The notes beneath the pieces were generated by a model, which made no database searches, had not been told where the DNA came from, and saw nothing but the letters and a program-made list of their open reading frames with translations. Shown piece by piece: positions 1,823 through 37,375 of a stretch of 38,686 nucleotides of DNA. Every line of letters starts with the position of its first letter. Position 1 is the stretch's first letter. Source of the DNA: Vicinamibacteria bacterium (GTDB lineage: Bacteria > Acidobacteriota > Vicinamibacteria > Fen-336); NCBI GenBank assembly GCA_025923995.1, contig JAICEW010000016.1, positions 1-38,686 on the forward strand, read 5' to 3'. Position numbers and translations under genes: made by a program.

Positions 1823-3412
1823 ATGCAACGTCTCCGAGTCGGCGTCCTCGATCTGATGACCAAGGGCCCCACCCGCGCCTTCTGGGGGCGGCTCATGCAG
1901 CCCAACTTCGCGAGCATCATGCCGCAGGTGGTCGCCGTGTGGTGCGAGCAGGCGGGGCACGACGTGCGCTTCCTCTGCTACACGGGCGGCGAGGACCTCA
2001 CGCGCGACCTGCCGTCCGACGCGGACGTGATCTTCATCGCCGCCTACACGCAGTCGGCACACCTCGCCTACTCCCTGAGCAACCTCTATCGGAGACGCGG
2101 AGTGGTGACGGTGCTGGGCGGGCCCCACGCGCGCTGCTACCCCGACGACGCGGCCCGGTACTTCGACTACGTGGTGGGCTTCACGGACCAGGCCCTGGTG
2201 CAGGACGTCCTGCGCGACGCGACGCCGCAGCACCCGGGGGTGCAGCTCTCGGCGGCGCGCCAGCCCACGCACCTGCCGGGCATCGAGCGGCGATGGAACT
2301 TCATCGCCCCCACCATCGCCCGTACGCCCATCCTCAAGATCGTTCCGACGCTGGGCAGCCTGGGCTGCCCCTACACCTGCCCCTTCTGCATCGACGCGGT
2401 GGTCGACTACCAGCCGCTCGACACCCGGCAGATCAAGGAAGACCTCCGGTTCCTGCTGACGCGGCTGAAGCGTCCGCTCGTGGGCTGGCACGATCCGAAC
2501 TTCGGCGTCCGCTTCGAGCAGATCATGTCGGCGATCGAGGAGGCCGTCCCCCGCGACCGCATCGACTTCGCCGCCGAGAGCAGCCTGTCGCTGCTCTCCG
2601 AGGACCGGCTGGGCCGGCTGCGCGCGAACGGCTTCAAGGCCATGCTGCCCGGGGTCGAGTCCTGGTACTCGCTGGGCGGCAAGTCGAACACGGGCCGGGC
2701 CGCCGGAGCCGAGAAGGTGGGCAAGGTCGCCGATCACCTCAACACCGTCCAGCGGTACATCCCCTACGTGCAGGCCAACTTCGTGCTCGGACTCGACGAT
2801 GACGAGGGCGAGGAGCCGTTCGAGCTGACTCGCCGCTTCGTCGACCTGGCGCCTGGCATCTTCCCGGCCTACTCGCTGCTCTCCGCGTTCGGCCAGGCCG
2901 CGCCGCTCAACCTGGCCCTCCAGCGCGATGGACGCGTCCTGCCCACGCCGTTCCATTTCCTCGACAACAACCGCGCAACCAACGTGCGCCCCAGGCACTA
3001 CACCTGGACCGCGCTGTACGACCACGTGATCGCGCTCAGGCGGCACTCGTTCTCGTGGCGCGCGGTGGCCCGGCGCTTCCAGGCGAACCAGGGAACGGTC
3101 CCTCGCTGGCTGAACGCGGTGCGTGCGCGCTCGTCGGAGGGCTCGGGCCGCATACGCTACGACACCACGGTCCGTCGCCTGCTGGACACCGACGCGGGCC
3201 TCCGGCGCTTCTTCGAGGGCGAGACGAGCGCCGTGCCCCGCTTCTACCTGGACCAGATGCGCTCGGACCTGGGCCCGTTGTGGGGGGCGCTGCCGGACGG
3301 TGCGTTGTCCCACGATCCGAACGCCTACTGGCGGGCCCAGGCCGCGCCTGCGGCCGGACCGCATCCGGGGGCTAGGAGCGCACCAGGCCCGTCATCTGCT
3401 GGAGGATGGTGA
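1823..3412 (+). CDS. B12-binding-domain-type radical SAM protein
   Basis: 529 residues from the ATG at 1823, chosen because GGAGGAAGG lies 8 nt upstream; an ATG at 1781 in the same frame has no such site. Residues about 1-150 look like a Rossmann-type cobalamin-binding domain (ending in the VLGGPHA segment at 97-103) but I do not see the DxHxxG motif for base-off B12. The radical SAM cluster site is GCPYTCPFC, with CX3CX2C cysteines at 182, 186 and 189, which would bind a 4Fe-4S cluster and cleave S-adenosylmethionine. A long C-terminal extension (about 380-529) is unassigned. The substrate is unknown. The gene stands alone and its last 41 bp overlap the convergent gene ending at 3372. Confidence 0.85.
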   Translation: MQRLRVGVLDLMTKGPTRAFWGRLMQPNFASIMPQVVAVWCEQAGHDVRFLCYTGGEDLTRDLPSDADVIFIAAYTQSAHLAYSLSNLYRRRGVVTVLGGPHARCYPDDAARYFDYVVGFTDQALVQDVLRDATPQHPGVQLSAARQPTHLPGIERRWNFIAPTIARTPILKIVPTLGSLGCPYTCPFCIDAVVDYQPLDTRQIKEDLRFLLTRLKRPLVGWHDPNFGVRFEQIMSAIEEAVPRDRIDFAAESSLSLLSEDRLGRLRANGFKAMLPGVESWYSLGGKSNTGRAAGAEKVGKVADHLNTVQRYIPYVQANFVLGLDDDEGEEPFELTRRFVDLAPGIFPAYSLLSAFGQAAPLNLALQRDGRVLPTPFHFLDNNRATNVRPRHYTWTALYDHVIALRRHSFSWRAVARRFQANQGTVPRWLNAVRARSSEGSGRIRYDTTVRRLLDTDAGLRRFFEGETSAVPRFYLDQMRSDLGPLWGALPDGALSHDPNAYWRAQAAPAAGPHPGARSAPGPSSAGGW

Positions 3413-4208
3413 TGGTGCGGCTCGAATCCTCCCAGACCTCCTTGAACACGTTCGCCTCCCGCATCCTGCGGTCCGCTTCGCGCGCCTCCTTGAGCACATC
3501 GTCCACGATGGGGCCAACGCTCTTCGGATTCACGATGCCGGCGTCGGCTCGGGCACGCAGGTCGCGGCTCACGGCCGCGAAGTAGTGGAGCTCGCCCAGG
3601 AACTGCTGGCCGCGGCTCGCGTAGCTTCCGAGCTCCTCGCGGGCGCGGCCGTAGGCCCTCGCGGCGCTCCCCTCGAGCTCGGCGGCCAGGTCGCGGAACT
3701 CCTGGAGCGGCGCCCCGGCCAGCGCGGGCACCACGTAGGGCGGTGGCACGTTCACCTCGCCGCCCGCCAGGGACAGCTGCATCAGCCCGAGCACCGCGCC
3801 CACGGCCGCCCATTCGGGGTAGGTGCTCGGGAGGACGCCCGCGGCGCGGAGCCGCTCCTCGACGGCGCGGGACACCTCGGTCAGCGCGGCCACCCGCGGA
3901 GCCGGGTCGAACCGCGCCGCGGGATACTCGTCCAGCGCGGCCCGGAAGTCCCGAGTGGAGCGCGCGAAGGCACGGATGGACGACAGGAACCTCGTGTCGG
4001 TCCGCGCACCGGAAAGGACCGCGTCGCCCGCCCCTTCGAGCAGGCCTTGCGCGGTCTCGTCGAGATGGCGGGCGAGCGAGCGCATGGTCTCGTAGCGCCT
4101 GGCGTCGAGTGGCCGCGCCGCGCTCGCCTCGCTTGCCCTCGCCGCCGCCGGGGCGGCCAGCAGCAGGCTGGTGACGGCCGCGCGGGCCAGCGCCGGGCGC
4201 CAGCTCAC
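3372..4208 (-). CDS. Secreted alpha-helical protein of unknown function
   Basis: 278 residues from a GTG at 4208-4206. The GTG overlaps the TGA of the upstream gene (GTGA, 4208-4205), which fixes the start and indicates translational coupling. A signal peptide is clear (VSWRPALARAAVTSLLLAAP, then an A-rich cleavage region near residue 26). The mature protein is predicted mostly helical and charged, with no cysteine pattern and no motif I recognise. It is the last gene of the four-gene operon headed by the GlsB/YeaQ gene, so it probably works in the periplasm with the CX6C repeat protein. Its 3' end overlaps the convergent radical SAM gene by 41 bp. Function not inferred. Confidence 0.75.
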   Translation of the reverse strand: MSWRPALARAAVTSLLLAAPAAARASEASAARPLDARRYETMRSLARHLDETAQGLLEGAGDAVLSGARTDTRFLSSIRAFARSTRDFRAALDEYPAARFDPAPRVAALTEVSRAVEERLRAAGVLPSTYPEWAAVGAVLGLMQLSLAGGEVNVPPPYVVPALAGAPLQEFRDLAAELEGSAARAYGRAREELGSYASRGQQFLGELHYFAAVSRDLRARADAGIVNPKSVGPIVDDVLKEAREADRRMREANVFKEVWEDSSRTITILQQMTGLVRS

Positions 4209-5089
4209 CGCGTGCCCCCTCCCGGGGGGAGGGCCGACACTTCGGACGGGCTCAAGCGCGATCGGTCGCAGTACCCCTGACCGCTCCGGCACGCCTGGAG
4301 GTTGCGCCGGCGCTCGCTGGCCGCCAGGGCGCCGGCTTCGCGCGGGCTCAAGAGGGAGTAGTCGCACGTCTCGCCACCCGAGCGGCACGTCTCGAGGTTG
4401 CGCGCTCGGGCCGCAAGGTCGACGCTGGCCGCTTCTCTCGGGCTGAGCCGCGACCGGTCGCACGCATCCCAGCCGCCCATGCATCTCCAGAGGTTTCGCT
4501 CGCGGGCCTCGTGCTCGACCTCGCGCGCCTCCCGTGGCGTGAGCACCCCCGGGTCGCAGCTGGCGAACCCCGACGTGCAGTCGGCCACCGTGCGCTCGCG
4601 CTGGCTACGCGCGATCTCGGCCTCGTCGGCCGGTGTGAGGGAGGATCGGTCGCACGATCCGACTCCGCTTCGGCAGGCCGAGACCATGCGTGCGCGCTCC
4701 TCCCCCGCGACTTCGCGCGCCTCCGAGGCCGTGAGCCGCGAACGGTCGCAGGGACCGATGCCGTCCCGGCAGCTCGACACGTTGCGGTCGTGCCGCGCCA
4801 GAGCTGCTGCGTTCGCCTCCGCGGGGGTGAGCTGCGCCGGATCGCAAGCCGCTGCGCCGCGCCGGCACTCCTGCAGGTTCCGCGCACGATCCGCGGCCGC
4901 GACGGCGGAGGCGTCCGACGGCGACAGGAGGGTGCGGTCGCATGTGGACGCACCTCGCTTGCAGTCCGAGAGGTTGGCCGTCTCGTCCGCCGCGGCGGAC
5001 AGGGCGCCCGCACAGAGAGCGAGGCCCAACACGCGCAGGCACCTCGTAGTCGTCGCTCTCACTCCCCATCGCGGCGGACGGACCTTCAT
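4205..5089 (-). CDS. Secreted protein of eight tandem 32-residue CX6C repeats
   Basis: 294 residues from the ATG at 5089-5087, which overlaps the upstream stop (ATGA). Residues 16-34 form a hydrophobic signal peptide (RCLRVLGLALCAGALSAAA). The rest is eight head-to-tail repeats of exactly 32 residues without a single indel. Cysteine pairs are at 43/50, 75/82, 107/114, 139/146, 171/178, 203/210, 235/242 and 267/274. The repeat consensus is roughly RNLxxCRxGxxxCDxSxLTP, followed by xEAxxVAxxxRx. Sixteen cysteines in a secreted protein suggest one disulfide per repeat and a regular solenoid, or metal/ligand binding; this is inference. I do not recognise a named family. It is the third gene of the operon behind a sigma-54-type promoter. 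Confidence 0.85.
   Translation of the reverse strand: MKVRPPRWGVRATTTRCLRVLGLALCAGALSAAADETANLSDCKRGASTCDRTLLSPSDASAVAAADRARNLQECRRGAAACDPAQLTPAEANAAALARHDRNVSSCRDGIGPCDRSRLTASEAREVAGEERARMVSACRSGVGSCDRSSLTPADEAEIARSQRERTVADCTSGFASCDPGVLTPREAREVEHEARERNLWRCMGGWDACDRSRLSPREAASVDLAARARNLETCRSGGETCDYSLLSPREAGALAASERRRNLQACRSGQGYCDRSRLSPSEVSALPPGGGTR
4211..4978 (-). repeat. Eight in-frame 96-bp tandem coding repeats
   Basis: The DNA counterpart of the 32-residue CX6C repeats, running with an unbroken 96-bp period. The copies are diverged at DNA level (only the Cys, Cys-Asp, Leu-Ser/Thr-Pro and Glu-Ala codons stay constant), so the array is old and held by selection on protein structure rather than a recent slippage expansion. 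Confidence 0.85.
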
Positions 5090-5346
5090 GGGGTTCGCTT
5101 TCGCCGGGACGACACGGCGGGCGCGCGGACCGACCCGGGGCTCTCTTCGTGGTCCACGTCGTCGAGGACCTGCACCAAGGATCGAGGCGCCCTCCGGACC
5201 ACCGCCGCGATCGACAAGGCGATGGCGGCCAGCGCCAGCGTCACCCACGCGAGGCCCCTGAGCCCGAAGCCCTGGGGCGCGAGGATGGCGTATACGGCCG
5301 CTACGGCCACGCACAACGAAACGACACTGACTGTGAGGTTGGACAT
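5086..5346 (-). CDS. Small two-TM inner-membrane protein
   Basis: 86 residues. Two hydrophobic segments are evident (about residues 5-24 and 30-51), followed by a polar C-terminal tail rich in Asp/Glu then Arg/Lys (VLDDVDHEE ... SSRRKRTP). By the positive-inside rule the tail is likely cytoplasmic. No named domain recognised. It starts 12 bp after the GlsB/YeaQ-type gene and its TGA overlaps the ATG of the CX6C repeat gene (ATGA), so it belongs to the same operon. The context suggests an envelope-stress role; this is inference only. Confidence 0.75.
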   Translation of the reverse strand: MSNLTVSVVSLCVAVAAVYAILAPQGFGLRGLAWVTLALAAIALSIAAVVRRAPRSLVQVLDDVDHEESPGSVRAPAVSSRRKRTP

Positions 5347-5358
5347 GTGCTTGATGCC

Positions 5359-5625
5359 TCAGCGTGCCGAAGCGAACCGGTTGAAGACGCCCAGCGCCCG
5401 AAGCGCCCCGATCAGGGCCGACGCTCCCAGGATCGCGACGATCCAGCCGCCCACTGGCCCGAGAGGGCCGACGTGGATGGCGCTGGCCAGGGCCAGTCCG
5501 AGCAACGACCCCACGATGCCGACGATCACGTTGGCCAGGATCCCCATCTGCGCATTGGTCTTCATCAGGATGCTGGCCAGCCAGCCGACGACCCCTCCGA
5601 TGATCAGTGTCCACAGGACGCTCAT
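5359..5625 (-). CDS. GlsB/YeaQ/YmgE family stress-response membrane protein
   Basis: 88 residues from the ATG at 5625-5623, which is preceded by GGAGGAG; the frame stays open further upstream but without a better site. Three glycine-rich transmembrane segments and the family pattern at the start (GGVVGWLASILMK) and in the middle (NVIVGIVGSLLGLAL) identify the transglycosylase-associated/GlsB family. Members are small inner-membrane proteins induced by acid, osmotic or general stress; their biochemical role is unresolved. It is the first gene of a four-gene minus-strand operon. A sigma-54-type -24/-12 element lies about 60 bp upstream. Confidence 0.92.
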   Translation of the reverse strand: MSVLWTLIIGGVVGWLASILMKTNAQMGILANVIVGIVGSLLGLALASAIHVGPLGPVGGWIVAILGASALIGALRALGVFNRFASAR

Positions 5626-5681
5626 GTCTCCTCCTCGCCGTCGGCCAGGAATGGCGCACTGGCGGTGGCTGCTGGTGAAAC

Positions 5682-5697
5682 AGCAAGAGCCGAGCCA
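5682..5697 (-). promoter_or_regulatory. Sigma-54 -24/-12 promoter element for the GlsB/YeaQ operon
   Basis: On the minus strand TGGC (5697-5694), seven bases, TTGCT (5686-5682): an exact match to the invariant -24 GG / -12 GC spacing of sigma-54 promoters (TGGC-N7-TTGCW). The predicted start is near 5671, giving a leader of about 46 nt before the ATG at 5625. A NtrC-family activator is encoded in the divergent operon. Confidence 0.65.
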
Positions 5698-5868
5698 TGG
5701 CGCACGCACGCTGCCGGCGCGACAGCTGCCGCCACGCTTCGAAGTTCCCGAGCCGGACATCGCGTTTTCTGTAATCCGCTGCATTGGTGGCCGCCCTCTC
5801 CTGCGCACGTCTCGATCGCCCGCTGCGGCGGTGGCGCTTCAAGCCGGGCTCGTGGTCCGTGGAAGTGA
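5698..5868. promoter_or_regulatory. Shared upstream region between two sigma-54-type promoters
   Basis: 171 bp without a credible gene, lying between the two -24/-12 elements. This is where an NtrC-type activator would be expected to bind upstream of both. Visible symmetric or repeated elements are the palindrome CTTCGAAG (5737-5744) and two GCTGCCG copies 15 bp apart (5710 and 5725). None is proven to be an enhancer site. Confidence 0.4.
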
Positions 5869-5884
5869 TGGCCCTGGTCTTGCT
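5869..5884 (+). promoter_or_regulatory. Sigma-54 -24/-12 promoter element for the YtxH-kinase operon
   Basis: TGGC (5869-5872), seven bases, TTGCT (5880-5884). The GG and GC dinucleotides have canonical sigma-54 spacing. With -12 at 5883 the transcript would begin near 5895, precisely at the AAGGAGG Shine-Dalgarno sequence (5895-5901) of the YtxH gene, so the leader would be only about 11 nt. Confidence 0.65.
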
Positions 5885-5905
5885 GGATCGAGGCAAGGAG
5901 GTTCC

Positions 5906-6154
5906 ATGAGCCAACGCATCGAGTACTGGACGTGGCTGAGCGGTTTTCTCGCCGGAGGGCTCGCAGGTGCGGGGGCCGCCCTGCTGTTGGCTCCCCGGTC
6001 GGGCAGGGACACGCGCGGACGCGTGGGACGCAAGCTGCGTCGCGCCGCCCGCGTCGCCCGCGAGCTGCGGGATCGCGAGCTCGTGGACCAGTCGGCGCTC
6101 GCCGGCAACGGAGGGCGCGCGGCGCCCCGCGAACCCGCACAGCCGGTCGAGTAG
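5906..6154 (+). CDS. YtxH-like small membrane protein
   Basis: 82 residues from the ATG at 5906, directly behind AAGGAGG. The N-terminal segment WLSGFLAGGLAGAGAALLLA is a single transmembrane helix followed by APRSGRDTRGRV, the signature of the YtxH/gas-vesicle-like stress family (membrane anchor, then APxSG-type turn and a basic helical tail). Such proteins are small general-stress membrane proteins without known enzymatic activity. It is the first gene behind the rightward sigma-54-type element and is followed 67 bp later by the first histidine kinase, so it may be a target and/or part of the signalling operon. Confidence 0.85.
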   Translation: MSQRIEYWTWLSGFLAGGLAGAGAALLLAPRSGRDTRGRVGRKLRRAARVARELRDRELVDQSALAGNGGRAAPREPAQPVE

Positions 6155-6221: not shown

Positions 6222-8309
6222 ATGTTGACTGACGGGCCGGCGAGCGGTTGGCTGGAGCGCCATGGCCCGGGAGTCGTCGCGGGCCTCTGCGGCGTCCTGA
6301 TCGCCATCGCCGTCAAGCTCGTCCTCGGCCGCCTGATGGACGAGACCGGCCTCTTCCTGCTCCTGCTCGTCGCAGTGACGGGCGCGGTCGCTCTGGGCGG
6401 GGCAGCGTCGGGTCTGGCCATCACCCTGCTGGCGGGCATGGCGACGGTCATGCTCAGCGGCTTCGCGAGCGAGCCGGTCCAGGCCTCTGACGCGATCACC
6501 CTCGCCCTCTTCCTCGCCGCCGGCGGCACCGTCAGCCTCGCCCTCGAGCGTCTGCGCCTTCCCCGGGGGCCGACGCTCCGCCCAGCGCCGCCGTCAGGGC
6601 CAACCGCCCTCGACGACGACCTGGACGCGAAGACCCACGAGCGCCGGGCGCAACTCGCGGCCCTCGATCAGCTGGGCCTGACGCTCTCCGGCCAGCTCGA
6701 CATGGCGACGCTCGCGAAGTCGGTGACCGAAGCCGGCGTGGCCATGACCGGCGCCGCGTTCGGAGCGTTGCTGTTCAAGGACGCCGCAGGCGCGTCCGCG
6801 CAGTACGTGACGGGCGCCCACGCGGGCGCCCTCGCCGACTTCCCGATGCCCCTCGACACGCATGCGTTCGGCTCGCCGTTCCGCGGCACGGTGACCCGGA
6901 GCGACGACCTCGTCGAGGACGGAAGGTTCGGTCCTGACCTGCCCTTCAAGCAGATGCCGGTGGGGCAGCAATCCGCACGCAGCTACCTGGCCGCTCCCAT
7001 CCATTCCGGCACCGGGACTTTCCATGGCGGCCTGTTCCTCGGGCATCCCGAGCCGGGCGTGTTCCGCCAGGCCGACGAGCGGCTGGTCGCGAGCCTGGCC
7101 GCGCACGCCGCCATCGCGGCGGACAACGCGCACCTGTACCGTGAAGCGCAGGAGGCGCGTGGCGCGGCCGAGGCAGCCAACCACGTCAAGGACGCCTTCC
7201 TCGCCACGCTCTCCCACGAGCTGCGGACTCCGCTGACCTCCATCGTGGGCTGGGCCAACCTGCTCAAGCTCGGGCGGCTCCCGGCGGACCAGGTGAGCGT
7301 CGCGGTCGAGACCATCCTCCGCAACGCCACCGCGCAGAGCCAGATCATCGACGAGCTGCTGGACGTGTCGCGCATCATCACCGGCAAGCTCCAGCTCGAC
7401 CTGCAGGTCGTGGACATCGGCGCCATCGTCAAGGCGGCGCTCGAGACCGTGACACCGGCCGCGGACACCAAGAAGATCCAGCTGCAGCTCATCCAGGATC
7501 CGGCGGGAAGCTTCATCCTGGGCGACCCGGAGCGCCTCCAGCAGGTGTTCTGGAACCTGCTCTTCAACGCGCTCAAGTTCACTCCCAGGAACGGGCGGGT
7601 GCGCGTGACCGTCCGGTCCGTCGGTTCCAGCGTCGACATCGTGGTGGAGGACACGGGCGTGGGCATCGACCCCGCCTTCCTCCCCCACATGTTCGAGCGC
7701 TTCACGCAGGGCGATTCCTCGAGCACGCGGGCCGCGCGCGGCCTCGGCCTCGGTCTCTCCATCGCGCGCCAGCTGGCCGAGCTGCACGGCGGCACCATTC
7801 GGGCGGACAGCCCCGGCGTCGGCTACGGCTCCACGTTCACGGTGACCTTCCCGCGCTCGCCGACGGCGGCGCCCCTGCCGGCCGAACCGGGCCTCCCTGA
7901 CGATGTGGTGGAAGACATGCCCCGGCTGGACGGCATACGGGTGCTGGTCGTGGAGGACGACGACGACGCGCGTGCGCTGCTGGAGGAGGTCCTGGGCGGC
8001 CAGGGCGCCTCGGTCCTCTCCAGCCCGACCGCTTCCAAGGCGCTCTCCATCCTCGAGCAGCAGCCGATCGACGTGCTGGTGAGCGACATCGAGATGCCCG
8101 GCATCGACGGTTATCACCTGATCCGCGAGGTCCGGTCGCGGTCCGTCGCGCAGGGGCGCGACGTCCCGGCGGCGGCTCTCAGCGCCTACGCGCGGACGGA
8201 AGATCGGCTGCGCGCCCTTCGTGCGGGATTCCAGCTACACTTGGCGAAGCCGGTGCAGCCTTCCGAGCTGGTCACCGTCGTCGCCAGCCTGGCGGCGCGG
8301 CGCAGCTAG
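6222..8309 (+). CDS. Membrane hybrid histidine kinase (DUF4118-like TM, GAF, HisKA, HATPase, REC)
   Basis: 695 residues from the ATG at 6222. Residues about 15-108 form four hydrophobic helices resembling the KdpD-type DUF4118 sensor region. A GAF domain follows (about 145-305), then the dimerisation/phosphoacceptor domain with H332 in SHELRTP. The ATPase domain has the N box (WNLLFNALKFTP), G1 (DTGVGID) and G2 (GLGLGLS). A C-terminal receiver has its phospho-Asp at D622 (VSDIEMPG). It should autophosphorylate at His in the inner membrane and pass phosphate to its own receiver and/or the NtrC-type regulator downstream. No HPt domain is visible. The gap to the next kinase is 30 bp; the two are paralogues. 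Confidence 0.93.
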   Translation: MLTDGPASGWLERHGPGVVAGLCGVLIAIAVKLVLGRLMDETGLFLLLLVAVTGAVALGGAASGLAITLLAGMATVMLSGFASEPVQASDAITLALFLAAGGTVSLALERLRLPRGPTLRPAPPSGPTALDDDLDAKTHERRAQLAALDQLGLTLSGQLDMATLAKSVTEAGVAMTGAAFGALLFKDAAGASAQYVTGAHAGALADFPMPLDTHAFGSPFRGTVTRSDDLVEDGRFGPDLPFKQMPVGQQSARSYLAAPIHSGTGTFHGGLFLGHPEPGVFRQADERLVASLAAHAAIAADNAHLYREAQEARGAAEAANHVKDAFLATLSHELRTPLTSIVGWANLLKLGRLPADQVSVAVETILRNATAQSQIIDELLDVSRIITGKLQLDLQVVDIGAIVKAALETVTPAADTKKIQLQLIQDPAGSFILGDPERLQQVFWNLLFNALKFTPRNGRVRVTVRSVGSSVDIVVEDTGVGIDPAFLPHMFERFTQGDSSSTRAARGLGLGLSIARQLAELHGGTIRADSPGVGYGSTFTVTFPRSPTAAPLPAEPGLPDDVVEDMPRLDGIRVLVVEDDDDARALLEEVLGGQGASVLSSPTASKALSILEQQPIDVLVSDIEMPGIDGYHLIREVRSRSVAQGRDVPAAALSAYARTEDRLRALRAGFQLHLAKPVQPSELVTVVASLAARRS

Positions 8310-8339: not shown

Positions 8340-9890
8340 GTGCAGGCGGCGCTTCCCCCGCAGACCGACGACGAGCTCCGCAGCTTCCTGGATGACGCGC
8401 GGCTGGGCCTCCGTCTGGTCGATCCCGACGGTCGCATCCTCTGGGCGAACGGGGCGGAGCTGGAGCTGGCCGGCTGCCTGGAGCGCGACTACGTCGGCCA
8501 CCACCTGGGCGAGTTCTTCGTGGAGCCCGGGGCGGCGGCGGAGATGCTGGCACGCCTGGCCGGACGTCAAGGCCTTTCGGGCTTCGAGACGTGCCTCCGG
8601 GCGCGGAACGGCACCATCCGCAGGGTCCTCGTCGACGGGCAGGGGCTGTTCCGCCAGGGCCGGCTCGTCCACAGCCGCTGCATCACGCGCGACGTCACGT
8701 CCCTGTTCGAAAGGGAGGAGACCGCTCGGCGTCGGGCCGAGGAGACGAGCCGACTGCAGGAGGACTTCCTGGCCCTGCTCTCGCACGAGCTGCGGGCGCC
8801 GCTGGGGACGGTGCTGCTCTGGCTCGGCCTGCTCAAGCAGGGCGAAAGCGACGCCGACGAGACGAGGCGCGCCGTGGAGATCATGGACCGCAGCGCCCGG
8901 ACCCTGGAGCAGATCGTCGAAGACCTGGTGCACGCCTCGCGCATCGCCGCGGGCGGACTCACGCTCACCCTCGAGCGCATCGACCTGGTCCGCGTCGTCC
9001 AGCAGGCGGTGGACGCCGCTCTCGGCGACGCCGCTGTCGCCGGCCTGCAGCTCATCTGCTCCGCGGGGACGGAGCCGATATGGGTGCTGGGGGATGCCGG
9101 CCGACTGCAGCAGGCGGTGTCCAACCTGCTCGCGAACGCCGTCAAGTTCACGCCGGCAGGGGGACGGGTCGACGTCTGCCTCGACGTGCGCGATCCGACG
9201 GCCCGGCTGCGCGTGAGCGACACGGGAGAGGGGATGAGCTCCGGCTTCCTGCCGTTCGCGTTCGGCAGGTTCCGCCAGCAGGACAGCACGAGCACGCGCG
9301 CCCATCACGGCCTGGGCCTGGGACTGTACGTCGTCCGGCACGTCATCGAGCACCACGGCGGACGAGTCCTGGCGGAAAGCCCCGGGCCGGCGCACGGGAG
9401 CACGTTCACCGTGCTGCTGCCCCTGGCGGACGAGGAGGCCGTCCGACTCCGCTCGCCCGTGGAGGCGCGCGCGGAAGCGGTTCTCCTGCGACCCGGGCTC
9501 AAGGTGCTGCTGGTGGACGACGAGGACGACGTGCGTGAGGCGCTCACGCGCCTGCTCGGGCAGCACGGAGCCGTCGTGGTCGGCGCCGCCTCGGCCCAGG
9601 AGGCGCGCGTGGTGCTCCAGGGCCTGCTGCCCGACGTGATCCTGAGCGACATCGCCATGCCGGTGGAGGACGGTCTCTCCTTCATCCGCAGCGTGCGGCA
9701 GCTGCCGCCCGAACGCGGCGGGCGGACGCCGGCCGCCGCGCTCTCCGCGTACGCCGGCACCGAGCACCGCAGGCAGGCGCTGGAGGCCGGCTTCGACGAG
9801 CACGTGTCCAAGCCCGTCCAGCCGCCCCACCTCCTGGCCGTCATCGCGAGGATGACCGGTGCGCCGGCGATCGCCCGGCGCACCGGATGA
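8340..9890 (+). CDS. Soluble hybrid histidine kinase (PAS, HisKA, HATPase, REC)
   Basis: 516 residues from a GTG at 8340, with GAGGAG 8 nt upstream. No membrane segment. A PAS domain occupies about residues 11-125, then HisKA with H149 (SHELRAP) and the ATPase domain with N box (NLLANAVKFTP), G1 (DTGEGMS) and G2 (GLGLGLY). The C-terminal receiver has D437 (LSDIAMP). The receiver of this protein and of the upstream kinase share the same ending (PAAALSAYA ... TE ... AGF ... KPVQP), so they arose by duplication. It lies 25 bp before the NtrC-type regulator and is probably co-transcribed with it. Cytoplasmic sensor; signal unknown. Confidence 0.93.
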   Translation: MQAALPPQTDDELRSFLDDARLGLRLVDPDGRILWANGAELELAGCLERDYVGHHLGEFFVEPGAAAEMLARLAGRQGLSGFETCLRARNGTIRRVLVDGQGLFRQGRLVHSRCITRDVTSLFEREETARRRAEETSRLQEDFLALLSHELRAPLGTVLLWLGLLKQGESDADETRRAVEIMDRSARTLEQIVEDLVHASRIAAGGLTLTLERIDLVRVVQQAVDAALGDAAVAGLQLICSAGTEPIWVLGDAGRLQQAVSNLLANAVKFTPAGGRVDVCLDVRDPTARLRVSDTGEGMSSGFLPFAFGRFRQQDSTSTRAHHGLGLGLYVVRHVIEHHGGRVLAESPGPAHGSTFTVLLPLADEEAVRLRSPVEARAEAVLLRPGLKVLLVDDEDDVREALTRLLGQHGAVVVGAASAQEARVVLQGLLPDVILSDIAMPVEDGLSFIRSVRQLPPERGGRTPAAALSAYAGTEHRRQALEAGFDEHVSKPVQPPHLLAVIARMTGAPAIARRTG

Positions 9891-9915: not shown

Positions 9916-11250
9916 GTGACGCTGCCGCTGGCGCTCATCGTGGACGACGACCGCGGCTTCGCGCTCGGGCTCACGCGGCTCGTGCGGACCGAGGGCTTCG
10001 ACGTGGTCAGTGCGCACAGCCTGGAGGAGGCCCGCGCGCAGATCGCTTCGAGACGCCCCGACATCATCCTGGCCGACCTGCGGCTGCCCGACGGCAGCGG
10101 AGCCGACCTGCTGGGCAGCTTCGAGGGGACGGAACCCCCGGACCTCGTCCTCGTCACCGCACACGCCAGCGTCGAGACCGCGGTCGACGTCCTGCGGCGC
10201 GGCGCCGTCGACTACCTCACCAAGCCGATCGACTTCGGCCGCGTCAAGATCGCGCTGACGGCGCTCAAGCGGGCGCTGGAGCTCAAGGGGGAGGTCGGAT
10301 CCCTGCGCAGCGAGCTGCGGAGGCTGGGGAGGTTCGGTTCCCTGGTCGGCGCCTCTCCGGCCATGCAGCGGGTCTACGACATCATCGAGCGCGTGGCCGC
10401 CAGCGAAGCCCGGGTCCTGATCTCGGGCGACACCGGCACCGGCAAGGAGCTCATCGCCGAGGCCATCCACGCCCACAGCCGGCGGCGCCGCGGGCCGTTC
10501 GTGGCTGTCAACTGCGGAGCCATCTCCACCAGCCTGATCGAGAGCGAGCTGTTCGGCCACGAGCGAGGCAGCTTCACCGGAGCCGACCGGCAGCACAAGG
10601 GACACTTCGAGCGGGCCCACGGGGGAACGCTGTTCCTCGACGAGGTCACGGAAATGCCCATGGACAGCCAGGTCCGGCTGCTCCGGGTGCTCGAGGCCTC
10701 GGCGCTGACGCGAGTGGGCGGAACGACGCCGGTGACCCTCGACGTGCGAGTCCTGGCCGCCACCAACTTCCCCATCGCGCAGGCGGTGGCGGCCGGCAAG
10801 CTGCGCCAGGACCTGCTCTACCGCCTGAACGTCATCGGCATCCAGGTGCCCCCCTTGCGCGAGAGGGGCGACGACGTGGCCCTCCTGGCCGAACACTTCC
10901 TCGAAGGGCTCAACGCCGCGGCAGGATTGCGACGGCGCTTCACGGAGGCCAGCCTGGACCGCATCCGCGAGCATCCCTGGCCCGGGAACGTTCGCGAGCT
11001 GAAGAACGTGGTGGAGCGGGCGTACGTCCTCACGGACGACGAGGTGGACGTGGAGGTGGCCTCCGCGCTGGAGCCGGATCCGTCCCCTTCCCTCCACAAC
11101 GGCGTCGGCAGCTCGCTGGGTGAATCCGAGCGCCAGCTGATCCTGGCCACCCTCGATCACTTCTCGGGCGACAAGCGCAAGGCCGCCGCCATGCTGAAGA
11201 TCAGCCTCAACACCCTCTACAGCCGCCTGCGAGAGTACAAGCTGGACTAA
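9916..11250 (+). CDS. Sigma-54-dependent NtrC-family response regulator
   Basis: 444 residues from the GTG at 9916 (GGAGAG just upstream). The receiver domain covers about 1-120 with phospho-Asp D54 ([11 protein letters not shown]) and the switch lysine in LTKP. The AAA+ domain (about 140-375) has Walker A GDTGTGKE (171-178), the sigma-54 contact loop ERGSFTGAD (217-224, a Ser variant of GAFTGA) and Walker [10 protein letters not shown] Fis-type helix-turn-helix ends the protein ([19 protein letters not shown]). Such proteins hexamerise when phosphorylated and remodel sigma-54 RNA polymerase. Two sigma-54-type promoters lie at the head of this operon and of the divergent one, so autoregulation and control of the envelope operon are likely. 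Confidence 0.95.
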
Positions 11251-37298: not shown

Positions 37299-37375
37299 TG
37301 GTGCGCCTGGAGGGACTCGAACCCCCAACCTTGAGCTTAGGATGCTCCTGCTCTATCCTGTTGAGCTACAGGCGC
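37299..37375 (-). tRNA. tRNA-Arg (anticodon CCT)
   Basis: 77 nt including an encoded CCA (37301-37299). The acceptor stem is GCGCCTG/CAGGCGC, the D arm GCTC/GAGC, the anticodon loop ATCCTAA with CCT at 34-36, the variable region AGGTT, and the T arm GGGGG-TTCGAGT-CCCTC. Base pair 27-43 is a G-A mismatch. It reads AGG. Four bases after the CCA begins the Shine-Dalgarno region of the YfgM-like gene. Confidence 0.95.

Follow-up and report, generated by a model that had tools for sequence, protein, structure and literature searches.

The 280-bp non-coding region at positions 5626-5905 of the window (i.e., the whole stretch of DNA analysed, 38,686 bp) lies between a leftward and a rightward operon. 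It probably contains a divergent pair of functional sigma-54 promoters that share a single enhancer located between the two. This reading draws on the promoter sequences themselves, the genome-wide position bias of their motif, the presence of rpoN, the domains of the activator, and an enhancer motif that recurs at other loci. A first-pass annotation had interpreted TGGC-N7-TTGCT, occurring twice in this region and once per strand, as two divergent sigma-54 promoters, each at the head of an operon. That interpretation is supported by the present analysis; it included neither the enhancer between the promoters nor the wider stress regulon described below. The features of the region are listed in Table 1.

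Table 1. Coordinates of the divergent operons and of the elements between them
Feature	Position	Strand	Sequence or basis of assignment
Probable exported protein with paired-cysteine tandem repeats, probably third gene of leftward operon	4205..5089	-	translation
86-aa membrane protein, second gene of leftward operon	5086..5346	-	no family found
GlsB/YeaQ/YmgE-like small membrane protein, first gene of leftward operon	5359..5625	-	via paralogue at C386
Leftward sigma-54 promoter	5682..5697	-	TGGCTCGGCTCTTGCT, exact match; GG at -24, GC at -12
Candidate shared enhancer (UAS)	5766..5779	+	TTTCTGTAATCCGC
Rightward sigma-54 promoter	5869..5884	+	TGGCCCTGGTCTTGCT, exact match
YtxH-like small protein, first gene of rightward operon, SD AAGGAGG	5906..6154	+	PF12732, E=2.6e-11
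Hybrid histidine kinase (hydrophobic N-terminus, GAF, HisKA, HATPase, receiver)	6222..8309	+	domain matches, N-terminal sequence
Hybrid histidine kinase (PAS, HisKA, HATPase, receiver)	8340..9890	+	domain matches
NtrC-type response regulator / sigma-54 activator	9916..11250	+	receiver, AAA+, Fis-type HTH

Organization of the operons

The GlsB-like protein has no Pfam match of its own at 0.001; its paralogue on contig C386 (59% identical) matches Transgly_assoc (PF04226) and has an exact sigma-54 site too. No family was found in Pfam or NCBIfam for the 86-aa membrane protein, nor for the scanned part (4348-5013) of the cysteine-repeat protein, which consists of about eight repeats of ~32 aa with the motif RNLxxCRxGxxxCDRSxLxPxEA. 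The rightward operon (YtxH, two kinases, regulator) does encode an NtrC-family activator, as had been claimed: besides the domains listed in Table 1, the protein carries a Walker A motif and the GSFTGA loop, the features of an NtrC-type enhancer-binding protein. NtrC-like matches number 23 in the genome, among them close paralogues on contigs C89 and C215 (the window regulator lies on C16).

Promoter sequences

Both 16-mers are exact, and no further exact match to TGGC-N7-TTGCW occurs in the 38.7 kb of the window; the expectation per 280 bp is ~0.004 (from 90 matches in 6.82 Mb). The spacing of GG (-24) and GC (-12) is likewise exact in both sites, in agreement with the canonical spacing first reported for them, and the variant with the same half-sites at N6 spacing is rare (12 matches genome-wide). 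The extended sigma-54 consensus is TGGCAC; the two sites read TGGCTC and TGGCCC, the A being absent from both. The start sites are predicted at 5671 (-) and 5895 (+). The latter is the first A of AAGGAGG, just as the first-pass annotation had placed it, and leaves a leader of 11 nt. A special role for this short leader was considered and rejected, similarly short predicted leaders (12-16 nt) being common at other sites of the genome. Neither sigma-70-like promoters nor terminators were found in the intergenic region, and the only RNA family found in the window was a tRNA gene at 37302-37375 (-), away from that region.

The genome (6.82 Mb, 592 contigs) encodes one rpoN (Sigma54_DBD, E=9e-63), whose presence had been named as a check on the proposal. 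A second check was whether the motif is concentrated before genes or equally frequent inside coding sequence. The bare motif is not enriched in number, with 90 matches of TGGC-N7-TTGCW genome-wide versus 98 of a reversed-pattern control, and enrichment was therefore judged by position instead. By this measure 68 of the 90 sites are non-coding, compared with 3 of 30 sampled control sites (Fisher p=1.7e-10), where coding and non-coding calls were made with a home-made codon-usage score and the control sample comprised the first 30 of the 98 reversed-pattern sites in contig order; 11.7% of random window positions are non-coding. A start codon with a Shine-Dalgarno sequence follows shortly downstream of most non-coding sites, and the motif is concentrated before genes and not in coding sequence. 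The unselected bases point the same way: A occurs at position 5 in 34/68 non-coding sites (p=8e-11) and C at position 6 in 38/68 (p=2e-4), as in TGGCAC, and this bias is absent from the coding sites. The 22 matches in coding sequence (of 90) are probably non-functional.

That the bare pattern is no commoner than its reversed control is what might be expected if both window sites were chance matches without function. This explanation is highly improbable in view of the position bias, the flanking-base bias, the exact spacing, a paired arrangement that is absent from the controls, and the enhancer.

Candidate shared enhancer

The centre of TTTCTGTAATCCGC lies ~75 bp from the -24 element of the leftward promoter and ~100 bp from that of the rightward promoter. 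An enhancer for an AAA+ activator is typically located ~80-150 bp upstream of a sigma-54 promoter (PMC4987338), and the two distances were counted as agreeing with this range. In the relatives (genomes G001-G034) an element of approximately TTTSTAGAWTC recurs 65-105 bp upstream of TGGC at sigma-54 sites that adjoin orthologous NtrC genes, and TTTCTGTAATCCGC fits this element. The form TTTSTRBADTC has eight matches in the genome, five of which are followed at a distance of 67-103 bp by an exact sigma-54 site (the window pair, a divergent pair on C9, groESL on C23, and the PBP1 and DUF5670 genes on C89); two of the remaining three are within genes and one is near a contig end with no evident sigma-54 site. 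The exact sequence TTTCTGNAATCCGC occurs twice in the genome, in the window and at groESL, each time upstream of the identical 16-mer TGGCTCGGCTCTTGCT, which precedes groES as it does the leftward operon.

A position weight matrix (PWM) was trained on ten instances from the relatives only; these were chosen by eye, and the motif statistics are hence partly exploratory. The score of the window enhancer was reached in 11 of 89 regions at -40..-140, in none of 86 at -150..-250 and in 2 of 88 downstream. The window enhancer is itself a diverged version (PWM 10.0) that ranks third in the 38.7 kb, two other places in the window scoring higher, so that its strength lies in its position and its groESL twin.

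Subtypes of the element can be distinguished: TTTCTGKAATCCGC is present in the window and at groESL, and TTTCTACATTC and TTTGTAGAGTC are found near the C89 regulator. The recognition helix reads SLNTLYSRL in the window regulator and SLKTLYNRL or SVKTLYNRL in the C89 and C215 paralogues. The subtypes differ in parallel with the recognition helices, a pattern that is only suggestive, being drawn from very few sites.

This comparison bears on the question of which activator is at work. Both promoters could be real and be activated by another enhancer-binding protein (that of C89 or C215, or any of ~20 NtrC-types), the regulator encoded here acting elsewhere and the layout being incidental. The number of NtrC-like proteins in the genome would allow for this, the paralogues keep most of the recognition helix (SLNTLYSRL vs SLKTLYNRL), and C89 has similar sites of its own. 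Such an arrangement is nevertheless unlikely, since the window and groESL enhancers form their own subtype, distinct from the sequences near C89, in step with the changed recognition helix of the C16 regulator, and since in related genomes, too, NtrC-type activators repeatedly lie next to sigma-54 targets.

Conservation in related genomes

The genome probably belongs to the Acidobacteriota; by GroEL, its closest match in a small set of named genomes is an Acidobacteria MAG (84%). Divergent pairs of exact sites 145-175 bp apart were found seven times in 193 genomes of the class and not once with the reversed-pattern control. Within the family of the window the enhancer motif accompanies 3/3 such pairs (PWM 10.0-13.7), and outside it 1/4 (PWM 11.4). 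G034, a member of another family of the same class, has two GlsB homologues with the sigma-54 sites TGGCTCAGCTCTTGCA and TGGCTCGGCTCTTGCA, and at one of the two the enhancer motif TTTGTAGAAAG is located upstream of the TGGCTCAGCTCTTGCA site. In G001, homologues of GlsB and PBP1 are oriented divergently, and the stretch that separates them contains two sigma-54 sites and a single TTTGTAGAAAA. DUF5670 genes adjoining the regulator have sigma-54 sites and the enhancer motif in G034, G004 and G001 as well as on C89 of the genome studied here. A sigma-54 promoter of groESL was not found in the relatives (groES loci L193 and L194-L217, a set exclusive of L218-L221). At eight loci from Eisenbacteria, Polyangiaceae and Betaproteobacteria, regulator orthologues are present and the enhancer pattern is absent or isolated.

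The syntenic YtxH-kinase-kinase-NtrC operon of G005 has two imperfect promoters, with TGGACCCGTTCTTGCT before ytxH, and no visible enhancer. The imperfect site before ytxH in this orthologue, together with the coding-sequence matches noted above, is in line with a situation in which only one of the two window sites works, the second having arisen by chance or decayed and its operon being read by another sigma factor. This is quite unlikely for the window, where both sites are exact, leave leaders of plausible length and have one enhancer motif between them, and where no sigma-70-like site was found; moreover, the left 16-mer is common to groES and nearly so to the GlsB homologues of G034, and the start predicted for the right site falls at an SD-led start codon.

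Other candidate regulon members

Two groES genes are present in the genome, one at L187 784-1071 (the groESL copy on C23) and one at G000:C245:9183-9464; the C23 copy carries both the sigma-54 site and the enhancer. The regulator of the window probably also drives this second groESL operon, judging from the shared promoter and enhancer sequences. The close paralogues on C89 and C215 probably drive BON, DUF5670 and PBP1 genes via the related TTTSTASAKTC.

The second divergent pair of the genome, on C9, has BON/CsbD on one side and a small conserved protein and an SOD-family protein on the other. The surrounding segment (C9:20001-40000, L168) forms a stress cluster that encodes Ku, an Fe/Mn SOD-family protein, BON and CsbD, and in which the divergent sigma-54 pair with its single enhancer occupies L168 6043-6202. 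Also on C9, at L167 17852-17891, a pair of divergent genes is separated by a perfect inverted repeat in which two sigma-54-like sites TGGCACCGGAGTTGCA are arranged back to back with 8 bp between them; the repeat may represent either divergent sigma-54 promoters or an operator. In the window itself, an enhancer-like GTTCTGGAATCTGC (1691-1704, two mismatches) is located 79 bp upstream of TGGACCCGGTCTTGCA (1770-1785, one mismatch). A B12-binding/radical SAM gene (1823-3412), which directly follows dnaK-dnaJ, begins 38 bp further on. The regulon may have a third sigma-54 promoter in the stretch 1691-1785.

Proposed mechanism

With two functional promoters and one shared enhancer as the preferred reading, we infer the following course from signal and phosphotransfer to binding and transcription. 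The two hybrid kinases of the rightward operon, the membrane one and the one with a PAS domain, would sense a stress signal and pass phosphate to the NtrC-type regulator. Bound at TTTCTGTAATCCGC, the regulator would reach RNA polymerase-sigma-54 at either of the -24/-12 elements by looping and would melt the promoter via ATP hydrolysis. Rightward, its own operon would thereby be amplified (positive autoregulation); leftward, the output would be an envelope-stress response made up of the GlsB-like protein and the two further membrane or exported proteins.

Relation to known systems

The closest known system in its working is zraP/zraSR of Salmonella and E. coli, in which divergent sigma-54 promoters are under an NtrC-family regulator encoded in one arm (PMC4987338); binding of ZraR upstream of both zraSR and zraP has been confirmed by ChIP-exo (PMC7657598). 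Common to both are the divergent sigma-54 promoters, the regulator in one operon and an envelope-stress protein on the other side. In the present system the place of ZraS is taken by two hybrid kinases, the regulator operon starts with a YtxH gene, the enhancer is different, and the set of targets is wider and includes groESL. Because no ZraP family was found on the divergent side in Pfam or NCBIfam (5359-5625, 5086-5346 and part of 4205-5089), the system is not a member of ZraPSR.

In the phage-shock system of enterobacteria (pspA/pspF), a stress operon under sigma-54 and the gene of its activator diverge from a region that contains the enhancers, a layout that resembles the present one; PspF lacks a receiver domain, in contrast to the regulator of the window, and pspF is not known to be transcribed from a sigma-54 promoter. 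Sigma-54 control of a groESL operon has a precedent in groESL3 of Bradyrhizobium; the activator there is NifA, acting in symbiosis, rather than a stress two-component system.

Sigma-54 promoters and their activators have been associated with envelope functions (Francke et al. 2011, PMC3162934); neither Acidobacteria nor Solibacter came up when the main text of that paper was searched by word, and a search of the literature for sigma-54 together with YtxH, DUF5670 or Vicinamibacter yielded nothing. The divergent sigma-54 layout is of a known kind, and no earlier description was found of the stress regulon reached through it.

Biological significance

Comparable general stress responses in Proteobacteria are run by RpoS or EcfG-type sigma factors. 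It is conceivable, if doubtful at present, that sigma-54 of this lineage runs a broad general stress response via paralogous NtrC-type systems that have co-diverged with their enhancers, and that this response comprises small membrane stress proteins, a chaperonin and a cell-wall synthase. Stress regulation has been little studied in this group of mostly uncultured soil bacteria, and the sequences reported here provide testable promoters and enhancers of a sigma-54 stress regulon in it. They would tie GlsB-like, YtxH, DUF5670 and BON proteins, small stress proteins that are widespread but whose role is unknown, to one signalling system. With their matched differences in helix and enhancer, the paralogous regulators would offer a route to testing how activator specificity diverges.
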